Assembly (NCBI GenBank): GCA_016946835.1
Contig: JACVTC010000121.1
Span: forward strand, 113,501 to 177,500
DNA: 64,000 nucleotides
Source of the DNA: Neocallimastix lanati (nom. inval.)
Taxonomy: Eukaryota > Neocallimastigomycota > Neocallimastigomycetes > Neocallimastigales > Neocallimastigaceae
Direction of reading: 5' to 3'
A program made the translations under genes and the position numbers. This document shows, piece after piece, positions 6,526-59,627 of this stretch. The notes beneath the pieces are model-generated. The model was not told where the DNA came from. It searched no databases and saw only the letters and a list, made by a program, of their open reading frames with translations. Positions within the stretch are counted from its first letter, which is position 1. The number at the start of each line of letters is the position of its first letter.

Positions 6526-9421
6526 CAACATACACATTATTTTCAATACTATTACTAACATTTACTAATAATATTATTACTAATATTACTATAACTATTA
6601 TTACTATAACTATTATTACTATTACTATTATTACTGTTGCTATTATCATTATTTACTATTAACAATATCATTTGTTAGGTTGCCACGATTAAAAACATTT
6701 ATCTCTTTTCCAATAAAAATCCTTGATTTTATTATCGTTATTACCTCTTTTCTCTAGTTTACGTTTAAGAGTTCTACTTTCTTTCGTCCATGTATATTTT
6801 CTAGATTTTGGAATATTATCAACTAAATAGGAAATAATATGATTTGAATCTTTCCATTTATCAAAATATTTGACTTGAGACAAAACACACTTAGCTGACA
6901 ATGGAGGAATATTTAAATCTTTTGAAATTGAATATACATTAATAAAAGATTTGGCTTTTTGTCAACCTGCAATTCATCTTAATCCTTTATTAATTAATTT
7001 CTGAGTATTATTTGTTCTCGCTTTATTTGAACCAAGTAAAGGTGCAAAGTAAGAAACTTTACTAAGTACATAGGAGTTAATTATAATCTTCTTAAATGGA
7101 ATAGAAATTTTGGAATTTGAAAGAAATTTACTAACAGAAAAGAGAGCTTTAGTAACTTTAGAGTTAAGTAATTTAATAATAGGGTTCAACAATAAGCTTT
7201 TATCAAATGGTATACCTAAATAGGTAAAGCATTTAGTTATTGGGATTGGTTGACCAGTAAGATAAAAAGTAGGATCTCTTTTATTTTGAAAAAGAGGTGT
7301 GTCTCGTCGAATCACCATCGTTGCACACTTGCTAATTCCAAAATTCATCATATTAAATTTAGCCCATTCATTTACCTTCTTAAGCGTTTTTTTTAACTTA
7401 GTTCTTGACGGTGCGCATAGAACAATATCATCTGAAAAGAGTCCACCACAATATCTAGATTCTCCTAAAGGAATTCCAAGTTCTGAAAAATCATTAAAAA
7501 TGTCATTAATAAATAGATTGAAAAGAATTGATGATGGTGGACAACCTTGTCTAACTCCTTTCATAATATTAAAAGATTCCGAATATTGATCATCAATTTT
7601 AACACTGGCTTTGAAAGTCAAATATGGATTTTTTATAAATTGATAACATTTACCTCTAATACCTAAAGCATCTAATTTATATAAAATATTACCTATTGGA
7701 ACAGAATCATATACATTTTTTAAATCTAGAAAAGCAAGGTAAGTTTCTTTATTTTCTTTTTACGCCTTTGACAAATTTCTCCAATTGAAATAAATAAACT
7801 AACACATTCTTCTTTATTACGAAATCCAAATTGCTCTGGCCTAATAAAATTATTTTTAAGTCCATATTCAGAAATTCTTTTAGAGACTATTTTCGAAATG
7901 AGTTTTATACCATTGTTAATCAGAGAGATACCTTGATAATTGTTACAATCAGATAGATCATCTCCTTTTTTAGGAAAAGATATAATACTTGCTTCATTCC
8001 ATATACTAGGAAATTCTCCATTCCAAATTCTAGAGTATATCTTCTGTAAACAATTTAAACCAAAAGCAGAATTATTTACTGAATTTTCGTCATCCGGAGG
8101 AATTAAAGCTTTATAAAAATTCAATAGGAATTCCATCCGGGCCTGAAGCTTTATAATTTGGAGCAGCTAAAATTGCTTCTTTAATTTCTTCTATACTGAT
8201 TTCTTGATTTATATCCCATTCATTGTGTCTCGTATACCTAATTGTACCATTGGAAAATTTATTAGACCATTCGTTTAATGCACTATTGATATCAGAATGA
8301 CTTGATGCAAATTTTTTATAGTGATTGTGCCAAACTTCTAACTGTTCTTTAGTAGAAGTAGCTAATTTACCATTTTTGTCCTTTACTGGAGAATTTGACA
8401 TATTTTTAAATTTATCTACTTTCGCCGTTGTTTTAAGCCATTTCCAAGCTTTCTTTGGGTTATGAGATTTCATATATTCACATCCTGTATTGATCCAATG
8501 TTGGTATTCAGTTTTCCTATAAATATTACACATATGATGATTAATTTTGCACATTCTATTATATTTTTCAATTAATTCTTCAAATTCATCTAAATTATGA
8601 TAAGAACCTCTTCTTTTAATGGCTTTATATAATTTCATTTTGAGTTTTTGCAAATTAAATATTTTCTGTGACATATGAAAAAAAGATTTTCTAACTTCTG
8701 ATATTGACGTTATATTAGTTCTTTAACAATATTGAATGAAGTTGATATAAATTTCTTAGAAATATCATCAATACTAATATTAGGATCTGGAATCACTTCC
8801 TCTAATACACTAAAATAGTTATTGTCAAAAAATTGATTCTTTTTCATTTATACATTTTAATCTATCCCATTTAACTGTCTTTTTAGGCAGAGAGAAAGAA
8901 TTATCTGAATTTTCTAATGAAAAACATTTACCTTTTATTAATAAAGGTTTATGATCCGAAATGGGGGGAAAGTCAATAAAAGTACCATATGAAAGTAAAT
9001 CTATCATATGATCATTGACAATCGCATGATCTATATCAGATTCTCTATTACCTCTACTCCATGAAATTGAGGAGCCCCATAAGGGAAGAATTTTCCAATT
9101 ACTAAATTTAGAGAGCAAATTACCTAATTTCTCAGTAGGTAAATTAAAATCACCAACCAACATTGAAGGATGAGAAGAGTGACTATTTAACCACTACAAA
9201 ATTTCAATTCTAGCAGCTCTAGCATGAAGGCTATGGCCACTATGAGGTACGTACACATTACCAATAGAACATTTAGTGAAATTCCAAAAATTATAAGTAT
9301 ACATAGAAATAATATACTCATTAGTGTTGTTTTCAAGAGAGGCTTGACAAGAATTATGAAACCCTATATAAAGTCCTTTTTTACCGGGAATTTCATTATT
9401 AGCTTTTTTGAAGAAATTCAA
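6526..9421 (-). pseudogene. ORF2 of LINE copy A: endonuclease-reverse transcriptase, broken
   Basis: On the minus strand the endonuclease pieces come first. 9421-9194 contains IGNVYVPHSG and 9163-8825 contains LVGDFNLP, SDIDHAIVN and PPISDHKPL, the Asn/Asp and SDH catalytic motifs of the EEP family. A linker follows (8674-8111). The reverse transcriptase comes next: ISFPKKGD and NYQGISLI at 8136-7726, then GVRQGCPPSS and the palm motif FSDDIVL (Y/FxDD type) and KCFTYLG at 7621-6974. A Trp/Lys-rich piece (6901-6689) and an Asn/Ser-rich spacer end it. At least four frame breaks or stops separate these pieces. The RT section is homologous to the fragment at 36457-36881. Confidence 0.88.
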
Positions 9422-12546: not shown

Positions 12547-14097
12547 TTAAGCTAAGCGAGGAGTGGTCCAGTCAATCCATTCACTCTTGCTAAAGTTAAT
12601 TGGTTGAGTGTTCTTAGAGTAATCAATCTTACCAGTCTTAGCATCCTTACCTAAAAGGAACTTATTTACAAAGTCCTTGACTTCATCGAATTGTCCGTTT
12701 GGTAATGAACAGTGCATGTGACCACCTTCTTGAGTGTAAGTGTATTTATCAGTAGCACCAAGAGCATCAAATATTTCCTTAGTAGCTTGACCACAGTAGT
12801 TAGATGGAACTTCACCAAGCCATTCTTGACCGGCATTATCAATAATTAAAAGGGCACGAGGAGCTACCATACCAGTAAGCATGTGTTGATCGAATGGAAG
12901 AGTGGTTTCTCTACCATCATAATTTCTGAAAGAACTAATCATCCAGTTACCTTCAGTAGCAGCACTACCTAAACCTTGAACGAATTGTTTACCCTTTTGT
13001 CTGTTGACTTGGGCACCAACACGCCAAAGAGAAGCACCACCAGAACCGGATTCTTGTGGAATAGTTAGAGCAATACGTTCATCAAAAGCACCAATGGCAA
13101 GAGCAGCCTTACCTAAACGTGAACAACCAGTAACAGCAAGGTGTTTAACATCAATACCAACACTTGAATCCTTCTCAAGGGCATCAATTAAACGACTAAC
13201 ACCCCAGGCCCAAGCCATAATGGTACCGGCATTACTACTTGGGTTAGCCTTAAAGAAGGCACCACTTCTTGGATTGTTTTCTGGAGCAAGATTATTGGTG
13301 TTAAAGGTAATTGAGGCAACATCAAGACCATTGGTTGAAGCGCCTAAACTACCACCCATACCAAAACCTTGGTCTAAACCAATAATAGCTGGCTTTGGTT
13401 TAGCAGCTGTACCAGCGTTACTGATAGTAACATCAAATGAGGCAGTATTGCCCTTGTTGGTAACAGTGACGGTATACTTGTTACCAGATTTTCTTCCTTC
13501 AACCTTATCTGGATTACGTGGCTTTTCACCGAACATGATCTTTTCAAATGTAGCGGCGATTTCTTCACGACGGCAAGTCCATTCAGCTTTAGTAGAAACA
13601 CGTTTACCACTAAGAGTCTTGAATGGATCTGGAAGCTTTGAGTTATTTACACTTGTTTGAATATTACCAATTTGGCATTGTTTACGATGGTCTTCAACGA
13701 AATCGTTAGCTGGTTGAGATGGTTGAGATGGTTGAGATGGTTGAGATGGTTGAGATGGTTGATTTCCGGAACAATTAGCTGGAATACCACACCAGTGTGA
13801 TCCTTCAATAGCCCATGAACCATCTTTATCTTTTTCTATAGCAGTACATGTCTTTTTACAACATGGATAACCAAATTTAGTTGACCAACAGGAGGCATCA
13901 TTAATTTTGGTAATACCACACCAATCACCAGTAGCTGAATCAATACCCCAATCACCATCATCATCTTTGTAATAAACAGGAGTATTACTGCTACTACAAC
14001 ATGGATAACCGAGAAATTCGGAGATACATTTATTTGTTGATTGAGCTAAAGCTACACTAACTAATTCAAGTAAAACTGGAATAGCTAAGAATTTCAT
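12547..14097 (-). CDS. Secreted 4-O-methyl-glucuronoyl methylesterase (CE15) with two dockerins
   Basis: Single exon, 516 residues. Residues 1-19 are a signal peptide. Two Cys-rich CBM10-type fungal dockerins follow (about 22-62, GYPCCSSS...GDWGID...WCGI; about 68-110, GYPCCKK...GSWAIE...WCGI), then a Gln-Pro-Ser linker encoded by 9-bp repeats (about 13712-13762). The rest is a CE15 catalytic domain with the family hallmark GCSRLGK (nucleophile Ser326), IPQESGSGG (Glu349, the expected acidic residue position) and HMHCSLP (His460/His462; His462 in the HC pair is the likely base). The enzyme cleaves ester bonds between lignin and glucuronoxylan. Dockerins should place it in the extracellular cellulosome. 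Codons are far richer in G/C than in neighbouring genes, which suggests high expression and possibly bacterial origin. A TATATATA stretch about 50 bp upstream (near 14143-14153) may be the TATA box. Confidence 0.95.
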   Translation of the reverse strand: MKFLAIPVLLELVSVALAQSTNKCISEFLGYPCCSSSNTPVYYKDDDGDWGIDSATGDWCGITKINDASCWSTKFGYPCCKKTCTAIEKDKDGSWAIEGSHWCGIPANCSGNQPSQPSQPSQPSQPSQPANDFVEDHRKQCQIGNIQTSVNNSKLPDPFKTLSGKRVSTKAEWTCRREEIAATFEKIMFGEKPRNPDKVEGRKSGNKYTVTVTNKGNTASFDVTISNAGTAAKPKPAIIGLDQGFGMGGSLGASTNGLDVASITFNTNNLAPENNPRSGAFFKANPSSNAGTIMAWAWGVSRLIDALEKDSSVGIDVKHLAVTGCSRLGKAALAIGAFDERIALTIPQESGSGGASLWRVGAQVNRQKGKQFVQGLGSAATEGNWMISSFRNYDGRETTLPFDQHMLTGMVAPRALLIIDNAGQEWLGEVPSNYCGQATKEIFDALGATDKYTYTQEGGHMHCSLPNGQFDEVKDFVNKFLLGKDAKTGKIDYSKNTQPINFSKSEWIDWTTPRLA

Positions 14098-31092: not shown

Positions 31093-34000
31093 ATGTCATT
31101 TTTTGATCCAATAATACCAATCTTACCACAAATAGCGTCAAATATTGCACCACAATTACTTCCAACTATATATAGTGGTTCAACTCATTCAATAAAACAT
31201 AATCAATTATATTCAAATGATTATGAACATTCAAATATTGGAAGACAAAATCAAGTACAAAATAATACATCAATAAATAATGTACCAATAAACAATCAAA
31301 ATTTATTAGCTGCTAATGTATCAAATAATAATAGTAATAATAATAAACAAGAACAAAGTAGTAATAGTAATAATAGTAATAATAATTATGCGTCAGTAAA
31401 AACAAAGCCAATGGCTGGAATTAATTATTTCCCATCAATACCAGAAAATTCAAAATTATTAAATCAAGTATTACCATTTTCATTAAATAACAGTGAAGGT
31501 AATACAAATGGTTCTAACTTTGGATACTATTCACCTTTATTAGATTATCAAAATCAAAATATTCATTTTCCAATAAATAATACCAATGTATTATTTTATT
31601 CTCCAATACCTGATTATATTAATCAAAAAGCATCAAATAATAATATTAATAATACTTCATTAAATAATATTCAAAAAAGTTCATACCCTTTTGCACATCA
31701 ACAACTACCAACAACTCCATTAAATCCTCAAAGAAATAATAATAATGGCGTTTTAGGATCAATTGATTCTATTTTAAAGCGTGAATCACAATATACAAAT
31801 ATACCATATAGAAACAATTTTGACTATTTAACTCCTTCTTTATTTGATAATAATTATTCAAAAAGTGGAAATGATGCAGTATTCGGAAATAATAATGCAA
31901 ATATACCTCAAACTCTAGTGAATTCTACTGTTGGTGATGTAATTGAAGATATTGTTAAAACGCAAAGTAATAAAGCATTTCCTGGTGCCATAGGTTCCGA
32001 AATTAAACAAAAGAAAATGTCAAAGACAGCTGAAAATGAATTAAATTTGGAAATTAAGATGAATAGTGAAAGTATAGAAACAAATAAAAAATATTTTAAT
32101 GATATTAATGTATTAATTAATAAAAGTAATGAGAAACAAATTCAGCAAACCATGATTGCTTCCGCACTATCGAAGTCAATTTTAGATTCAAAAAACATTA
32201 CAAATTATATTAGTCATAATATTGTGAATGATGGTAATGCTATGCAAAAAGATTTGAATTCAAATATTCTCGCCGCAAGTCTTTTAGAAGGATTTAATGA
32301 ACCAAAAGAAAACAATGAATTGAAATCTGAATCTATAGAATCTAATGTGATAGGTTTAAATAGTGTTAAAAAAGTTGCAAAAAGTCCAAAAGCTAAGAAA
32401 GGAAAGAATGAAAAGAAATTAAATAAAAAGAAAATATATTGTAATAAAAGTTCTGTAGATACCAAAAAGATTAATGAAAAGGAAAATAGTGAAAGCACTT
32501 CCGGGAAAGAAAATATTAATTCAAAAAATAAAATTATGAACAAATCTAGAAATAATACTAAAGTTGGAGTATCTTCTCCTCATTTGAATAAGATAAATGT
32601 TAAAGGTACCCCTTTAAATGTAAATCAAACTCAACTAAATATGAGAAAAGCATTGACTGAGAGAAATGATAAATTAGCTTGGCAATACTATAAAGAAATT
32701 ATTGAAAGCAATAATTATAAAGCATTGAGTCATACAGACTATTCCAGAATATTACGTATATTGAGAAATGAAAGAGGACCTGTAAAATCACCAAATAATT
32801 TAAATGAAATGGTTCAAATTGTTGAATATATTAAAGAAGCTGGTTATCAACCAAATCATGGTGATTTTACAACCATGATTGCAGCATTTGGTAGATCTCA
32901 TCAATTGGTTAAGGCTTTAACCTATTTTGAAGAAATGAAACAAGCTAATTTAGAACCAGATATTTTTACTTATAATACATTAATTGATGTATATGGTAAA
33001 AACAAGGAATTAAGTTCAGCTGTAAAAATATTTAATGAAATGAAGGAAAAGAAATTAAAACCAACTTTGGCAACTTATAATATTTTAATTTCTGCTCATG
33101 GATTAAATGAAGATCCAAAGGGAGCTAAGCATTGGTTTGATCAAGTTATAAAGGAACCATCAATATCAGCCAATGAAATTACATATAGTAATATCATGGA
33201 TGCTTACGCTAGAGTAGGAGATGTTGATAATACTTTAAAGTATCTTAATGAAATGTTATCTAAAAAGATTACTCCAAGTTTAGGTCACTATAATTCTCTC
33301 GTTTTAGTTTTCACAAAAGTTGGGAATGTAGAAAAAGCTATTGAAATGTTAAAAGAAATGAAGAATAAAGGAATGGAGCCATCTCCTCATATTTATTCTT
33401 TATTAATGAATGCCTATGGTGAGAATAATGATATATCTGGAGCTTCAGAAATTCTTAACAATCATCCAAAGAAACCAGGACGTAGTATGTACCATACTAT
33501 GATTCAGCTTTATGGTAAAAGAGGTAATTTAATTGAAGCTTGGAAAACTTTAAATCAAATGATTCAGCAACATATTACTCCAACTCCATTAACTTGGAGA
33601 ATATTAGCATCATGTCATGGAAATAATCCATGTATTAGCTATTGGGCAAAGCAAGTTAATATTACACCAACAGCCGCAATGTACAATCACTTTTTAGAAT
33701 ATTATTCAAAACAACCAAATATTAAAGCAGTTGATATGTTATTTAATGAAATGGTAGCACAGAAATTTATACCTACGATTGAAACTTATAATTCAATTTT
33801 ACATGCTCATTCAATTCTTGGTGATTCAGATTCTGTCTTTAGAATTTATTCAGAACTTGAAAAGGCAAAACTAGAACCAAATTTATATACTTATAATATT
33901 ATTTTAAAGGTCTATGCCAAGATTGGTGATAGTAAAAGTGCTATGAAGTTATTTGAAAATGAAATAATTCCAAAAGAAAAATATGGTGTTATTCCTGATG

Positions 34001-34158
34001 CCTTTACATATAACGCTTTACTGGAATCATTTAAAGAGAATTTTGACAATAGCGCATTTAAATATTTAGATGACATGAAAGCGAAAGGTTTAGCTCCAGT
34101 ACCACATCGTGATACAGCTATTATGAAAGCTATTCATGCTTCTAATAACTTTAATTAA
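31093..34158 (+). CDS. Pentatricopeptide repeat (PPR) protein with long Asn-rich N-terminus
   Basis: Single exon, 1021 residues. Residues 1 to about 510 are Asn/Ser-rich and largely disordered in appearance, with a basic patch near 435-465 (KSPKAKKGKNEKK). From about residue 516 to the end there are roughly a dozen 35-residue PPR units. Clear examples are TYNTLIDVYGK, TYNILISAHG, HYNSLVLVFTKVGNVEKAIE, TYNSILHAH, TYNIILKVYAKIGDSKSAM and TYNALLESF, many closing with LxPD/T/N. PPR proteins bind single-stranded RNA, mostly in mitochondria or plastids. The N-terminus (MSFFDPIIPILPQIASNI) is not a typical matrix presequence. Gut fungi have hydrogenosomes that are thought to lack a genome, so the target may be cytosolic or nuclear. 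The role is inferred from the fold only. Confidence 0.93.
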   Translation: MSFFDPIIPILPQIASNIAPQLLPTIYSGSTHSIKHNQLYSNDYEHSNIGRQNQVQNNTSINNVPINNQNLLAANVSNNNSNNNKQEQSSNSNNSNNNYASVKTKPMAGINYFPSIPENSKLLNQVLPFSLNNSEGNTNGSNFGYYSPLLDYQNQNIHFPINNTNVLFYSPIPDYINQKASNNNINNTSLNNIQKSSYPFAHQQLPTTPLNPQRNNNNGVLGSIDSILKRESQYTNIPYRNNFDYLTPSLFDNNYSKSGNDAVFGNNNANIPQTLVNSTVGDVIEDIVKTQSNKAFPGAIGSEIKQKKMSKTAENELNLEIKMNSESIETNKKYFNDINVLINKSNEKQIQQTMIASALSKSILDSKNITNYISHNIVNDGNAMQKDLNSNILAASLLEGFNEPKENNELKSESIESNVIGLNSVKKVAKSPKAKKGKNEKKLNKKKIYCNKSSVDTKKINEKENSESTSGKENINSKNKIMNKSRNNTKVGVSSPHLNKINVKGTPLNVNQTQLNMRKALTERNDKLAWQYYKEIIESNNYKALSHTDYSRILRILRNERGPVKSPNNLNEMVQIVEYIKEAGYQPNHGDFTTMIAAFGRSHQLVKALTYFEEMKQANLEPDIFTYNTLIDVYGKNKELSSAVKIFNEMKEKKLKPTLATYNILISAHGLNEDPKGAKHWFDQVIKEPSISANEITYSNIMDAYARVGDVDNTLKYLNEMLSKKITPSLGHYNSLVLVFTKVGNVEKAIEMLKEMKNKGMEPSPHIYSLLMNAYGENNDISGASEILNNHPKKPGRSMYHTMIQLYGKRGNLIEAWKTLNQMIQQHITPTPLTWRILASCHGNNPCISYWAKQVNITPTAAMYNHFLEYYSKQPNIKAVDMLFNEMVAQKFIPTIETYNSILHAHSILGDSDSVFRIYSELEKAKLEPNLYTYNIILKVYAKIGDSKSAMKLFENEIIPKEKYGVIPDAFTYNALLESFKENFDNSAFKYLDDMKAKGLAPVPHRDTAIMKAIHASNNFN

Positions 34159-36456: not shown

Positions 36457-36881
36457 AATTTGAAAGAAATTTTCTAACGGAAAAGAGAACTTTGGTGACT
36501 TTAGTGTTAAGTAATTTAATAATAGGGTTCAACGATAAGCTTTTATCAAATGGTATACATTTAGTTATTGGGATTGGTTGACCAGAAAGATGAAATAGTA
36601 GGATCTCTTTTATTTTGAAAAAAGAGGTGTATCTGGTCGAATCACCATCATTACACACTTGTTCATTCCAAAATTCATCATATTAAATTTAACCCATTTA
36701 TTTATTTTCCTAAGCATTTTTTTTTAACTTAGTTCTTTTTTTGCAGTCAATTGCTCTACCGCTGAGCTAACACCCCAACTTAGTTCTTGATGATGCGAAT
36801 AGAACAATATCATCTGCGAAGAGTCCACCACAACATCTTGATTCACCTAAAGGAATTCCAAGTTCTGAAAAATCATTAAAA
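36457..36881 (-). mobile_element. Internal LINE fragment (reverse transcriptase), A family
   Basis: Minus-strand frame 36658-36446 encodes LSGQPIPITKCIPFDKSLSL and NPIIKLLNTKVTKVLFSV. This is nearly identical to copy A at about 7110-7310, apart from a 12-bp deletion. Homology continues to 36881, matching 7310-7500 and including the palm-region DNA (AGAACAATATCATCTG). No poly-A or 5' end is present. AAAT microsatellites sit close to both ends. The fragment is interrupted at 36738-36776 by the tRNA-half insertion. Confidence 0.9.
36738..36776 (-). pseudogene. Retrotransposed 5' half of tRNA-Cys(GCA) with A tail
   Basis: The minus strand reads GGGGTGT, then the A-box-like TAGCTCAGCGG, the D-arm partner TAGAGC and the anticodon-arm 5' strand ATTGACTGC. 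That is tRNA positions 1 to 35, stopping inside anticodon GCA. It is followed directly by A residues (T run 36738-36742). A perfect 12-bp target duplication, AACTTAGTTCTT, flanks it (36726-36737 and 36777-36788). The unoccupied site with a single AACTTAGTTCTT is visible in LINE copy A at 7395-7406. There is no B box, so it is not expected to be transcribed as a tRNA. Confidence 0.93.
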
Positions 36882-50080: not shown

Positions 50081-50200
50081 CCTTAGTAGATCGCGCTATC
50101 AAATTTGTATCTGTAAAGAATGAAAGCTTTAGAGTTCCACTCTATTGTCATAGAAAGGGACAACAAAGAATCTCAAAAAAAAAAAAAAAAAAAAAAAAAT
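50081..50200 (+). mobile_element. Possible short retrosequence with poly-A tail
   Basis: Mixed-composition DNA (landmarks AGTAGATCGCGCTATC and GTTCCACTCTATTGTC) ends AAAGAATCTC followed by an A run to 50200. Its interior loosely resembles the 28.0-kb element (GTAAAGAAT followed by a GAG-containing stretch). No target duplication was found. This is a tentative call based on the tail and composition. Confidence 0.25.
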
Positions 50201-50480
50201 AATTTAGACACACATAATGAGTACCCATCTCCCATTATGACCATAACAGATATATCTGGTAAGTGTGATATACTGGCATACTAGTACAGCATTACCCCTC
50301 CACACGTCATTACACATCTGCCTGGGGCTGTATTCCCTAACATTCCTACATATATCTCTATTGACTATGGGCATCGGAATAGGAATCATTCACCCTTCCA
50401 GTGGTTATTGACGTGAGGACATAATATCATCAGTGCCTATGATTAAGATGTAGTGTAGTAACCAAGGATTCTACAGTGAC
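50201..50480. other. G/C-richer island of unknown nature just upstream of the copia remnant
   Basis: The composition is close to balanced (for example CTGCCTGGGGCTGTATTCCC), against almost pure A/T around it. The minus strand has a 61-codon open frame (50389-50204, MIPIPMPIVNRDICRNV) with no recognised family. Its position suggests a possible remnant 5' LTR or leader of the copia element. No second LTR copy was found in the window to prove this. Confidence 0.35.
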
Positions 50481-58784: not shown

Positions 58785-59585
58785 CCCCAATTTTTGTAAT
58801 AAACAATGGATAAGTCATTGGTTAATTGATTGTCCCTTTTTCAATCATACTCGTAGTAAAGTTAATGATAAAATTTTATTTTTATATAATGCTTTTTACC
58901 GTGGCAACCTAACAAATGATATTGTTAATAGTAATAATGATAATAGTAATAGTAATAATAGTAATAGTTATAATAGTAATAATAATATTAGTAATAGTAT
59001 TTTTAGTAATGTTAGTAATAGTATTGAAAATAATGTGTATATTGATTCTAGTGTGTGTGAAAAAGTGTTTAATTTCCTTCTTGGAGGTCGAAGTATTAAT
59101 AACAGTACAAGGGAATGGAAGGATCTATTTAAGTGCCAGATGAAATCAGGTGCTTATTCTGATACTCCGTTCTTAGTGGTTACTGCGGCACTTCTCCAAT
59201 CGATTATACCTATTGCTATTGGCCAGCAATGGTCTTTGTTCAATAGGTTCAAATCGAATCGTACTACTACTACCAAGAGCGTCAATGCTGAAGAAACAGT
59301 AAGACAGGCCAGCAGGGCTAGCGCAACCAATGAAGATCATAATTTTGTATCTTAAAATTATGATTAACATTGCGAAGTCAAAGTTAATTATTATACTTCA
59401 GTATAATAATGCCCTTGTGAAGTCTTACAAATATTAATTAAATGAAACTAGAATATATTATACCATTATTTTTTTTATTTTGTGTTTTATTTTTTGTTTA
59501 TTTTTTTATCTTTTTTTTTTTTATTATTTTATTACATGTATTTTATCAAATATTTAATTAATAAAGATGAAACAAGTTTGCTGCC

Positions 59586-59618
<33 letters not shown>

Positions 59619-59627
59619 CCAATTTTT
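58785..59627 (+). mobile_element. LINE copy E, young 5'-truncated insertion
   Basis: The element (58796-59616) is flanked by a perfect 11-bp duplication, CCCCAATTTTT, at 58785-58795 and 59617-59627. It carries an uninterrupted frame from the truncation point to the stop at 59355. This frame encodes the C-terminus of ORF2: HWLIDCPFF of the zinc-knuckle region, an Asn/Ser-rich spacer, NFLLGGRS, DTPFLVVTAALL and IPIAIGQQW. A 3' UTR ends GCTGCCGTT with about 28 A residues (59589-59616). The tail and UTR match copy D; the spacer matches copy A (AACCTAACAAATGATATTGT in both). The intact frame, long tail and perfect duplication point to a recent event. Confidence 0.93.

Follow-up and report, generated by a model that had tools for sequence, protein, structure and literature searches.

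A tRNA-Cys 5' half followed by an A run, almost certainly a LINE-mediated insert, in the genome of Neocallimastix lanati

How could part of a tRNA-Cys, running from its mature first base to the anticodon and followed by nothing but a short A run, come to lie inside a LINE copy? We addressed this question at a locus in a 64,000-nt stretch of Neocallimastix lanati contig JACVTC010000121.1 (hereafter the window). The minus strand at 36726-36788 reads AAGAACTAAGTT, a 39-nt insert and AAGAACTAAGTT again, and the insert itself (36738-36776) consists of GGGGTGTTAGCTCAGCGGTAGAGCAATTGACTGCA and AAAA. The locus has the following parts.

36457..36880, minus strand: LINE copy B, a fragment covering part of the RT region, which carries the insert
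36742..36776, minus strand: tRNA-Cys(GCA) 5' half, 35 nt, Sprinzl positions 1-36, identical to the host gene; A36 is common to the half and the tail
36738..36741, minus strand: A tail, four A without counterpart in the tRNA gene; the tail may extend by one or two A into 36736-36737, which fit the duplication as well
36726..36737, minus strand: target-site duplication AAGAACTAAGTT on the 3' side of the insert, 12 of 12 bp identical
36777..36788, minus strand: target-site duplication AAGAACTAAGTT on the 5' side of the insert, 12 of 12 bp identical

Read from 36776 to 36742 on the minus strand, the insert equals nucleotides 1-35 of the host tRNA-Cys(GCA) at 35 of 35 positions, starting at the mature 5' end, and it diverges from the gene exactly at G37, where A stands instead of G. 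On its 5' side LINE sequence, with no tRNA-gene flank, borders directly on mature base 1. The match thus keeps the 5' end intact and stops at 35/36, in the anticodon, which is a single-stranded loop. A preliminary description made from the letters alone had reported a tRNA-Cys piece of 34 nt, from base 1 to the anticodon, with an A run between perfect 12-bp duplications. The duplications are indeed identical, and the piece was confirmed with a length of 35 nt if the last letter of the anticodon GCA is included, because A36 cannot be told from the tail. After C35 come seven A and then GAACTAAGTT, so that the tail is 4-6 A past A36, or 5-7 A if the break lies at C35|A36. Since A36 may be tRNA or tail and the last two A may be tail or duplication, the duplication measures 10-12 bp and the tail 4-7 nt.

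The window has one occurrence of an 18-nt A-box core, whereas 100 dinucleotide shuffles gave none at up to 3 mismatches. Neither ARAGORN nor Rfam called a tRNA in the window, and no full cloverleaf was found, as expected for half a molecule. The 39 nt contain an A box and lack a B box and a body, and with an A box alone we expect the insert to be inert. tRNA-derived SINEs have both boxes, a body and many copies; the insert resembles them in its tRNA 5' part with the A box and differs in having no B box, no body and one locus. A tRNA gene or tRNA-derived SINE was rejected on these grounds together with the lack of a tRNA call. Exact 12-bp flank repeats at a spacing of 39 are found at 138 of 63,900 positions in the window, a high background that we put down, taking the positions unsorted, to AAAT and A/T runs; the duplication at the insert is no such run.

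The genome (199 Mb, 762 contigs) was then compared with the insert. Its 29-nt core gave 105 matches at up to 3 mismatches and its reversed control gave none. We read the 100 matches listed, 30 of them by eye, 60 by a 3' half with up to 4 mismatches and 10 by one with up to 5. The 100 places comprise 98 full-length tRNA-Cys, the insert, and one 5' piece (L014/L140) fused to a diverged repeat. ARAGORN returned tRNA-Cys(GCA) for all 22 tRNA-Cys loci submitted, which came from 30 loci of the core search. The full-length copies (98 of the 100 places read) continue from GACTGC into AGATCAATAGGTCTTCGGTTCAAATCCGGAACGCCCC with small differences. Presence of the half in the host tRNA-Cys had been set beforehand as a test, and the half is there, running on into G37: in 98 of 98 full copies G follows directly on GCA or its variant, and in none does an A run follow the anticodon. 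With so many genes at hand (98 full copies read), a fragment of tRNA-Cys gene DNA might have filled a staggered break, or the junction might be an assembly error. We consider such a non-RNA origin very improbable, as the insert begins at the mature 5' end without gene flank, no gene copy among those read has its A run, and a duplication together with an empty site is the signature of TPRT.

The two halves of tRNA-Cys are numerically balanced in the genome, with 104 matches for the 3' half against 105 for the 5' half. For four 3' places out of 100 listed (G000:C170:33334, C170:45093, C202:61345 and C327:7522), the list of 100 5' places contains no partner; they may belong with the five 5' places outside that list, or be orphans. 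As a separate observation, tRNA-Cys closely precedes tRNA-Gly(UCC) or closely follows tRNA-Ser(UGA) in 16 of the 22 ARAGORN loci, which suggests that many tRNA-Cys copies spread as gene pairs.

L002-L008, L010, L019, L020: tRNA-Cys with a tRNA-Gly(UCC) neighbour (ARAGORN)
L003, L011, L015, L017, L022, L024, L028: tRNA-Cys with a tRNA-Ser(UGA) neighbour (ARAGORN)

The target of the insert is seen uninterrupted in a second LINE copy of the window, and a third copy displays how the LINE inserts itself.

6700..8341, minus strand: LINE copy A, with RVT_1 in the ORF 6974-7621
7395..7406, minus strand: empty site in LINE copy A, a single uninterrupted 12 bp
58796..59616, plus strand: LINE copy truncated at its 5' end, with 28 A at 59589-59616
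58785-58795 and 59617-59627: 11-bp duplications CCCCAATTTTT of the 5'-truncated LINE copy

The empty site in copy A, already pointed out in the preliminary description, was confirmed and found to recur. A 201-nt query from copy A spanning the site was used, the best 40 of 576 candidates were scored, and 30 were excised, copy A included. All 30 LINE copies read have a single, uninterrupted AAGAACTAAGTT followed by (A/G)AAAAAA. As best matches to an uninterrupted query these copies are biased to empty sites; they prove that the empty site exists, not that occupied copies are absent elsewhere, and the absence of another locus with a half and an A run is based on the genome-wide TAGCTCAG pattern described below, not on this survey. 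A tandem repeat of the LINE, which could have mimicked a duplication, was rejected, as the 12 bp are present once in each of the 30.

Copy B is 82-88% identical to the 30 copies in the left flank and 92-96% in the right flank. Despite this divergence the insert is unchanged relative to the tRNA gene and both duplications are identical; at 5-12% divergence, 47 sites would all stay unchanged with a probability of 0.09 to 0.002. The comparison suggests that the insert is probably younger than copy B, a rough dating because part of the LINE divergence lies between subfamilies.

We next consider the machinery. One LINE copy that was checked encodes Exo_endo_phos (an APE-type endonuclease) and RVT_1 domains, and its best sequence relatives in the PDB include the LINE-1 ORF2 protein. 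Of the 30 copies, eight were extended downstream, and the tail motif was present in seven. A runs of about 21-37 end six of these seven, and the run in L066 is broken. Duplications are clear in three of the seven (about 10-15 bp, a range set by letters common to the junctions), measure 6-7 bp in two, one of them of low complexity, and were not found in the other two. Judged by its domains and ends, the resident LINE is an L1-like element with APE endonuclease and RT that terminates in poly(A), and the 5'-truncated copy in the window, with its A run and duplication, bears the signature of this machinery. The duplication of the insert falls within the size range of the resident LINE, and its tail is shorter than the LINE tails. 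The target-site letters at the few LINE junctions gave no clear endonuclease consensus by eye. Taken together, the duplication, the empty site, the processed-RNA ends and the short, untemplated A tail are those of a LINE-mediated (TPRT) retrocopy, and we regard it as close to certain that LINE machinery inserted a shortened tRNA-Cys here.

Where, then, was the tRNA shortened? The match breaks off at G34-C35-A36, and RNase A/T2-type nucleases cut preferentially at steps such as C|A. Seven of the 72 positions of the RNA belong to the anticodon loop, so that a random break would fall there about once in ten cases, and one break point is insufficient as proof of cleavage. The preliminary description had argued that an intact 5' end excludes truncation by the LINE. 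This argument is incomplete, as mammalian tailless retropseudogenes keep the 5' end too (PMC5322556, available part). An intact 5' end is common to the products of internal priming, and the discriminating feature is the untemplated A run.

In the case of internal priming, the nicked end would pair with A36 of an intact tRNA, and further T would be added untemplated or by slippage. The available part of PMC5322556 accepts this route for mammalian 3'-truncated retrocopies of tRNA, 5S and U2 that end in single-stranded loops, and at our locus the nicked end ...TTCTT could supply T. The tRNA, however, has a single A before G37, which leaves 4-6 A unexplained by pairing, and by eye the target end CTT does not pair with GCAGA beyond one A. 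Under the 2-18 nt criterion for target complementarity, A/T pairing at A36 and with the A run was all that we saw, again by eye. We hold internal priming on an intact tRNA to be unlikely. Since pairing of the nicked end with an intact tRNA yields one A only, an RNA that already ended in the anticodon is favoured, and the sequence favours prior cutting of the RNA.

Our first choice for the template, which we hold with slightly more belief than doubt, is a tRNA-Cys already cut in the anticodon and A-tailed. The steps would be as follows. A 5'-mature tRNA-Cys with its 3' end already in the anticodon (after C35 or A36) would have received a short A tail. An older LINE copy would then be nicked in its plus strand by an L1-like machinery, behind ...AACTTAGTTCTT, the A tail would anneal to the nicked end, and copying would proceed to the first tRNA base. 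Second-strand synthesis would leave the 10-12-bp duplication. We infer the prior cleavage in the anticodon loop, the tailing by a poly(A) polymerase and which LINE acted; as tailing enzyme we would presume the nuclear TRAMP-type polymerase of fungi to be a candidate. The supporting observations are the 35/35 identity, the mature 5' end, the untemplated A, the duplication, the empty site, the single locus for this A-box class and a resident poly(A) LINE. Further support comes from the lack of a CCA-ended tRNA-Cys retrocopy under one exact pattern and from mammalian LINE-1 chimeras whose tRNA segments of about nt 1-37 were attributed to tRNA halves (PMC13174262, available part).

Several points weigh against a tailed half. 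The event is a single one, and the tail has 4-7 A versus about 21-37 in six of seven LINE copies. Cleavage by an anticodon nuclease of the RNase A/T2 type yields a cyclic phosphate end, which would have to be repaired before a poly(A) polymerase could extend it. Four of seven LINE copies are without a clear duplication, and no endonuclease consensus was seen by eye. Human 5S and U2 break points, moreover, showed no convincing oligo(A) (PMC5322556, in the part available). Thus, of the earlier claim that an A-tailed half was copied by the resident LINE, retrotransposition stands on the duplication, the A run, the empty site and a suitable LINE, and the pre-cut RNA is favoured only. Whether the insert preserves, as a fossil in the genome, an A-tailed 5' half of tRNA-Cys that served alone as a LINE template is, in our estimate, an evenly balanced matter.

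The word alone matters here, as the A run might also be the tip of another RNA's tail. The reverse transcriptase would start on the poly(A) of a LINE or other RNA, copy a few A, jump to the 3' end of a tRNA-Cys half and continue to the 5' end of that half; a cut tRNA would be required in this case as well, although the half would need no 3'-OH. Chimeras made by template switching of a fungal LINE are documented in Magnaporthe (PMC2104539, available part), and tRNA halves joined to LINE-1 are described in mammals (PMC13174262, available part). The same genome also has, in L140, another 5' piece of tRNA-Cys (Sprinzl 1-46) that is fused to a repeat body, without visible duplication. The insert itself, however, has no LINE or mRNA sequence, and a switch after 4-7 nt would be a special case. 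We rate a template jump as rather unlikely, second to the tailed half and slightly ahead of internal priming.

L140:996-1400 (G000:C57:562920-563324) holds tRNA-Cys up to Sprinzl 46 with one mismatch, joined to a diverged dispersed repeat, and an A run of about 30 lies further downstream. We found no duplication around the tRNA-Cys piece. When the best 40 of 425 candidates were scored, the body family gave 49 matches, itself and short side matches included, the longer ones being 70-79% identical. In all 11 relatives read, the window copy included, other sequence occupies the place of the tRNA. From this arrangement, template switching may have captured a further 5' piece of tRNA-Cys in L140. 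Rfam gave no match up to E 5 at the family member in the window.

50184-50398, minus strand: L140-family member, its 5' part not tRNA; a T run follows

How many inserts of this kind does the genome contain? A genome-wide pattern of TAGCTCAG-N(4-8)-AGAGC with six A within 30 nt hit the insert locus only, in six overlapping rows, and its control hit nothing. Besides tRNA-Cys, the pattern covers several other tRNAs that share the TAGCTCAG...AGAGC A box. The pattern for the TAGTNTAGNGGT A-box class returned one locus, L157, and is noisy, given 39 rows in its reversed control; L157 was rejected as an A-tailed tRNA half, since on reading it does not look like one. The single-locus count covers the TAGCTCAG and TAGTNTAGNGGT A-box classes, with the classes TGGT and TGGC outside it. 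Consistently, a scan of 629,468 gathered bases (both strands counted) found the same half at the insert locus only, and one exact pattern run over the genome found no retrocopy of a full mature tRNA-Cys with CCA end. Several duplicated copies of the same insert were also rejected, as the genome-wide pattern gives one locus. Among the classes searched, the A-tailed tRNA-half insert is a single event and not a class. The 'class of minimal retrogene' proposed earlier is accordingly unsupported in this genome, where the TAGCTCAG class pattern is confined to this locus and TAGTNTAGNGGT yielded no convincing half.

Two known kinds come nearest, namely tailless retropseudogenes and the chimeras of tRNA halves with LINE-1 described in 2026. 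Schmitz et al. reportedly described tailless retropseudogenes of therian mammals in 2004. According to the available part of Noll et al. 2015 (PMC5322556), 2,402 tailless retropseudogenes end in single-stranded regions; those of tRNAs have an intact 5' end and lack the 3' part from a loop onwards, which is explained by internal priming. As to distribution, the same part names therians and the anole lizard and mentions eight U2 forms in maize; it also states that human 5S/U2 breaks were searched for oligo(A) without convincing signals, from which internal priming was concluded. The insert shares with them the intact tRNA 5' end, the cut in a single-stranded loop, the duplications and an L1-type LINE. 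It differs in having 4-7 A, whereas the tailless forms are by definition free of oligo(A) and arise by internal priming, and in its fungal host. What is available of PMC3747384 and PMC2237900 cites tailless forms and has nothing on A-tailed halves.

The 2026 study in Cell Genomics reports, in its available part (PMC13174262), 21 tRNA/LINE-1 chimeras in mammals, typically half-length, and suggests tRNA halves as the source. There the tRNA runs from nt 1 to about 37, duplications of 9-19 bp were present in eight of eight cases checked, and the half is joined to LINE-1, mostly in antisense, for which twin priming is suggested. Going by that part, our insert is alike in extent (tRNA nt 1-36 versus about 1-37), in LINE machinery and in duplications. 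It is unlike in that its 39 nt are tRNA and A only, and in that the surrounding LINE seems older and has the empty site elsewhere. In Magnaporthe, LINE sequence is joined to unrelated RNAs, with 14-bp repeats around one chimera (PMC2104539, available part). The use of an unrelated RNA by a fungal LINE is common to both cases; in contrast to the insert, those chimeras carry LINE or SINE sequence, and the available part reports no tRNA halves.

Small RNAs that poly(A)-type LINEs mobilise in trans give rise to processed retrocopies with an A tail, a duplication and a mature 5' end. The insert agrees with them in all of these features and differs in lacking the 3' half and in bearing its tail on the anticodon. 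Our literature search, which covered subscription journals thinly and sources partly in excerpt, found no report of A-tailed tRNA halves as stand-alone LINE inserts among the titles and opening lines of abstracts that it listed.

The insert suggests that a cut tRNA can serve the LINE copying machinery as template. Only the model of a pre-cut, adenylated RNA predicts additional A at the break, and the insert thus separates this model from internal priming on an intact small RNA, two routes that are hard to distinguish in mammals. If the preferred reading is true, the locus is a positive case of the truncated, adenylated template that was sought without convincing success for human 5S/U2 (PMC5322556, available part), and genomes can hold a datable record of tRNA cleavage. 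Should further inserts of this kind turn up in other genomes with many L1-type LINEs, the positions at which they break off would show where tRNAs had been cut in the inherited lineage. At present, there is one clean example in a fungal genome.

The window also contains four protein-coding features away from the insert. CBM_10 is the dockerin of gut fungi, and the esterase, which is of fungal type and cellulosome-like, is in keeping with a gut-fungal host.

12547-14097, minus strand: glucuronyl esterase (GCE_fung) with two CBM_10 domains
31093-34158, plus strand: PPR protein, 1021 aa
37862-40219, minus strand: protein with a CBM_21 starch-binding domain, 785 aa
60235-61659, plus strand: ankyrin-repeat protein, 474 aa
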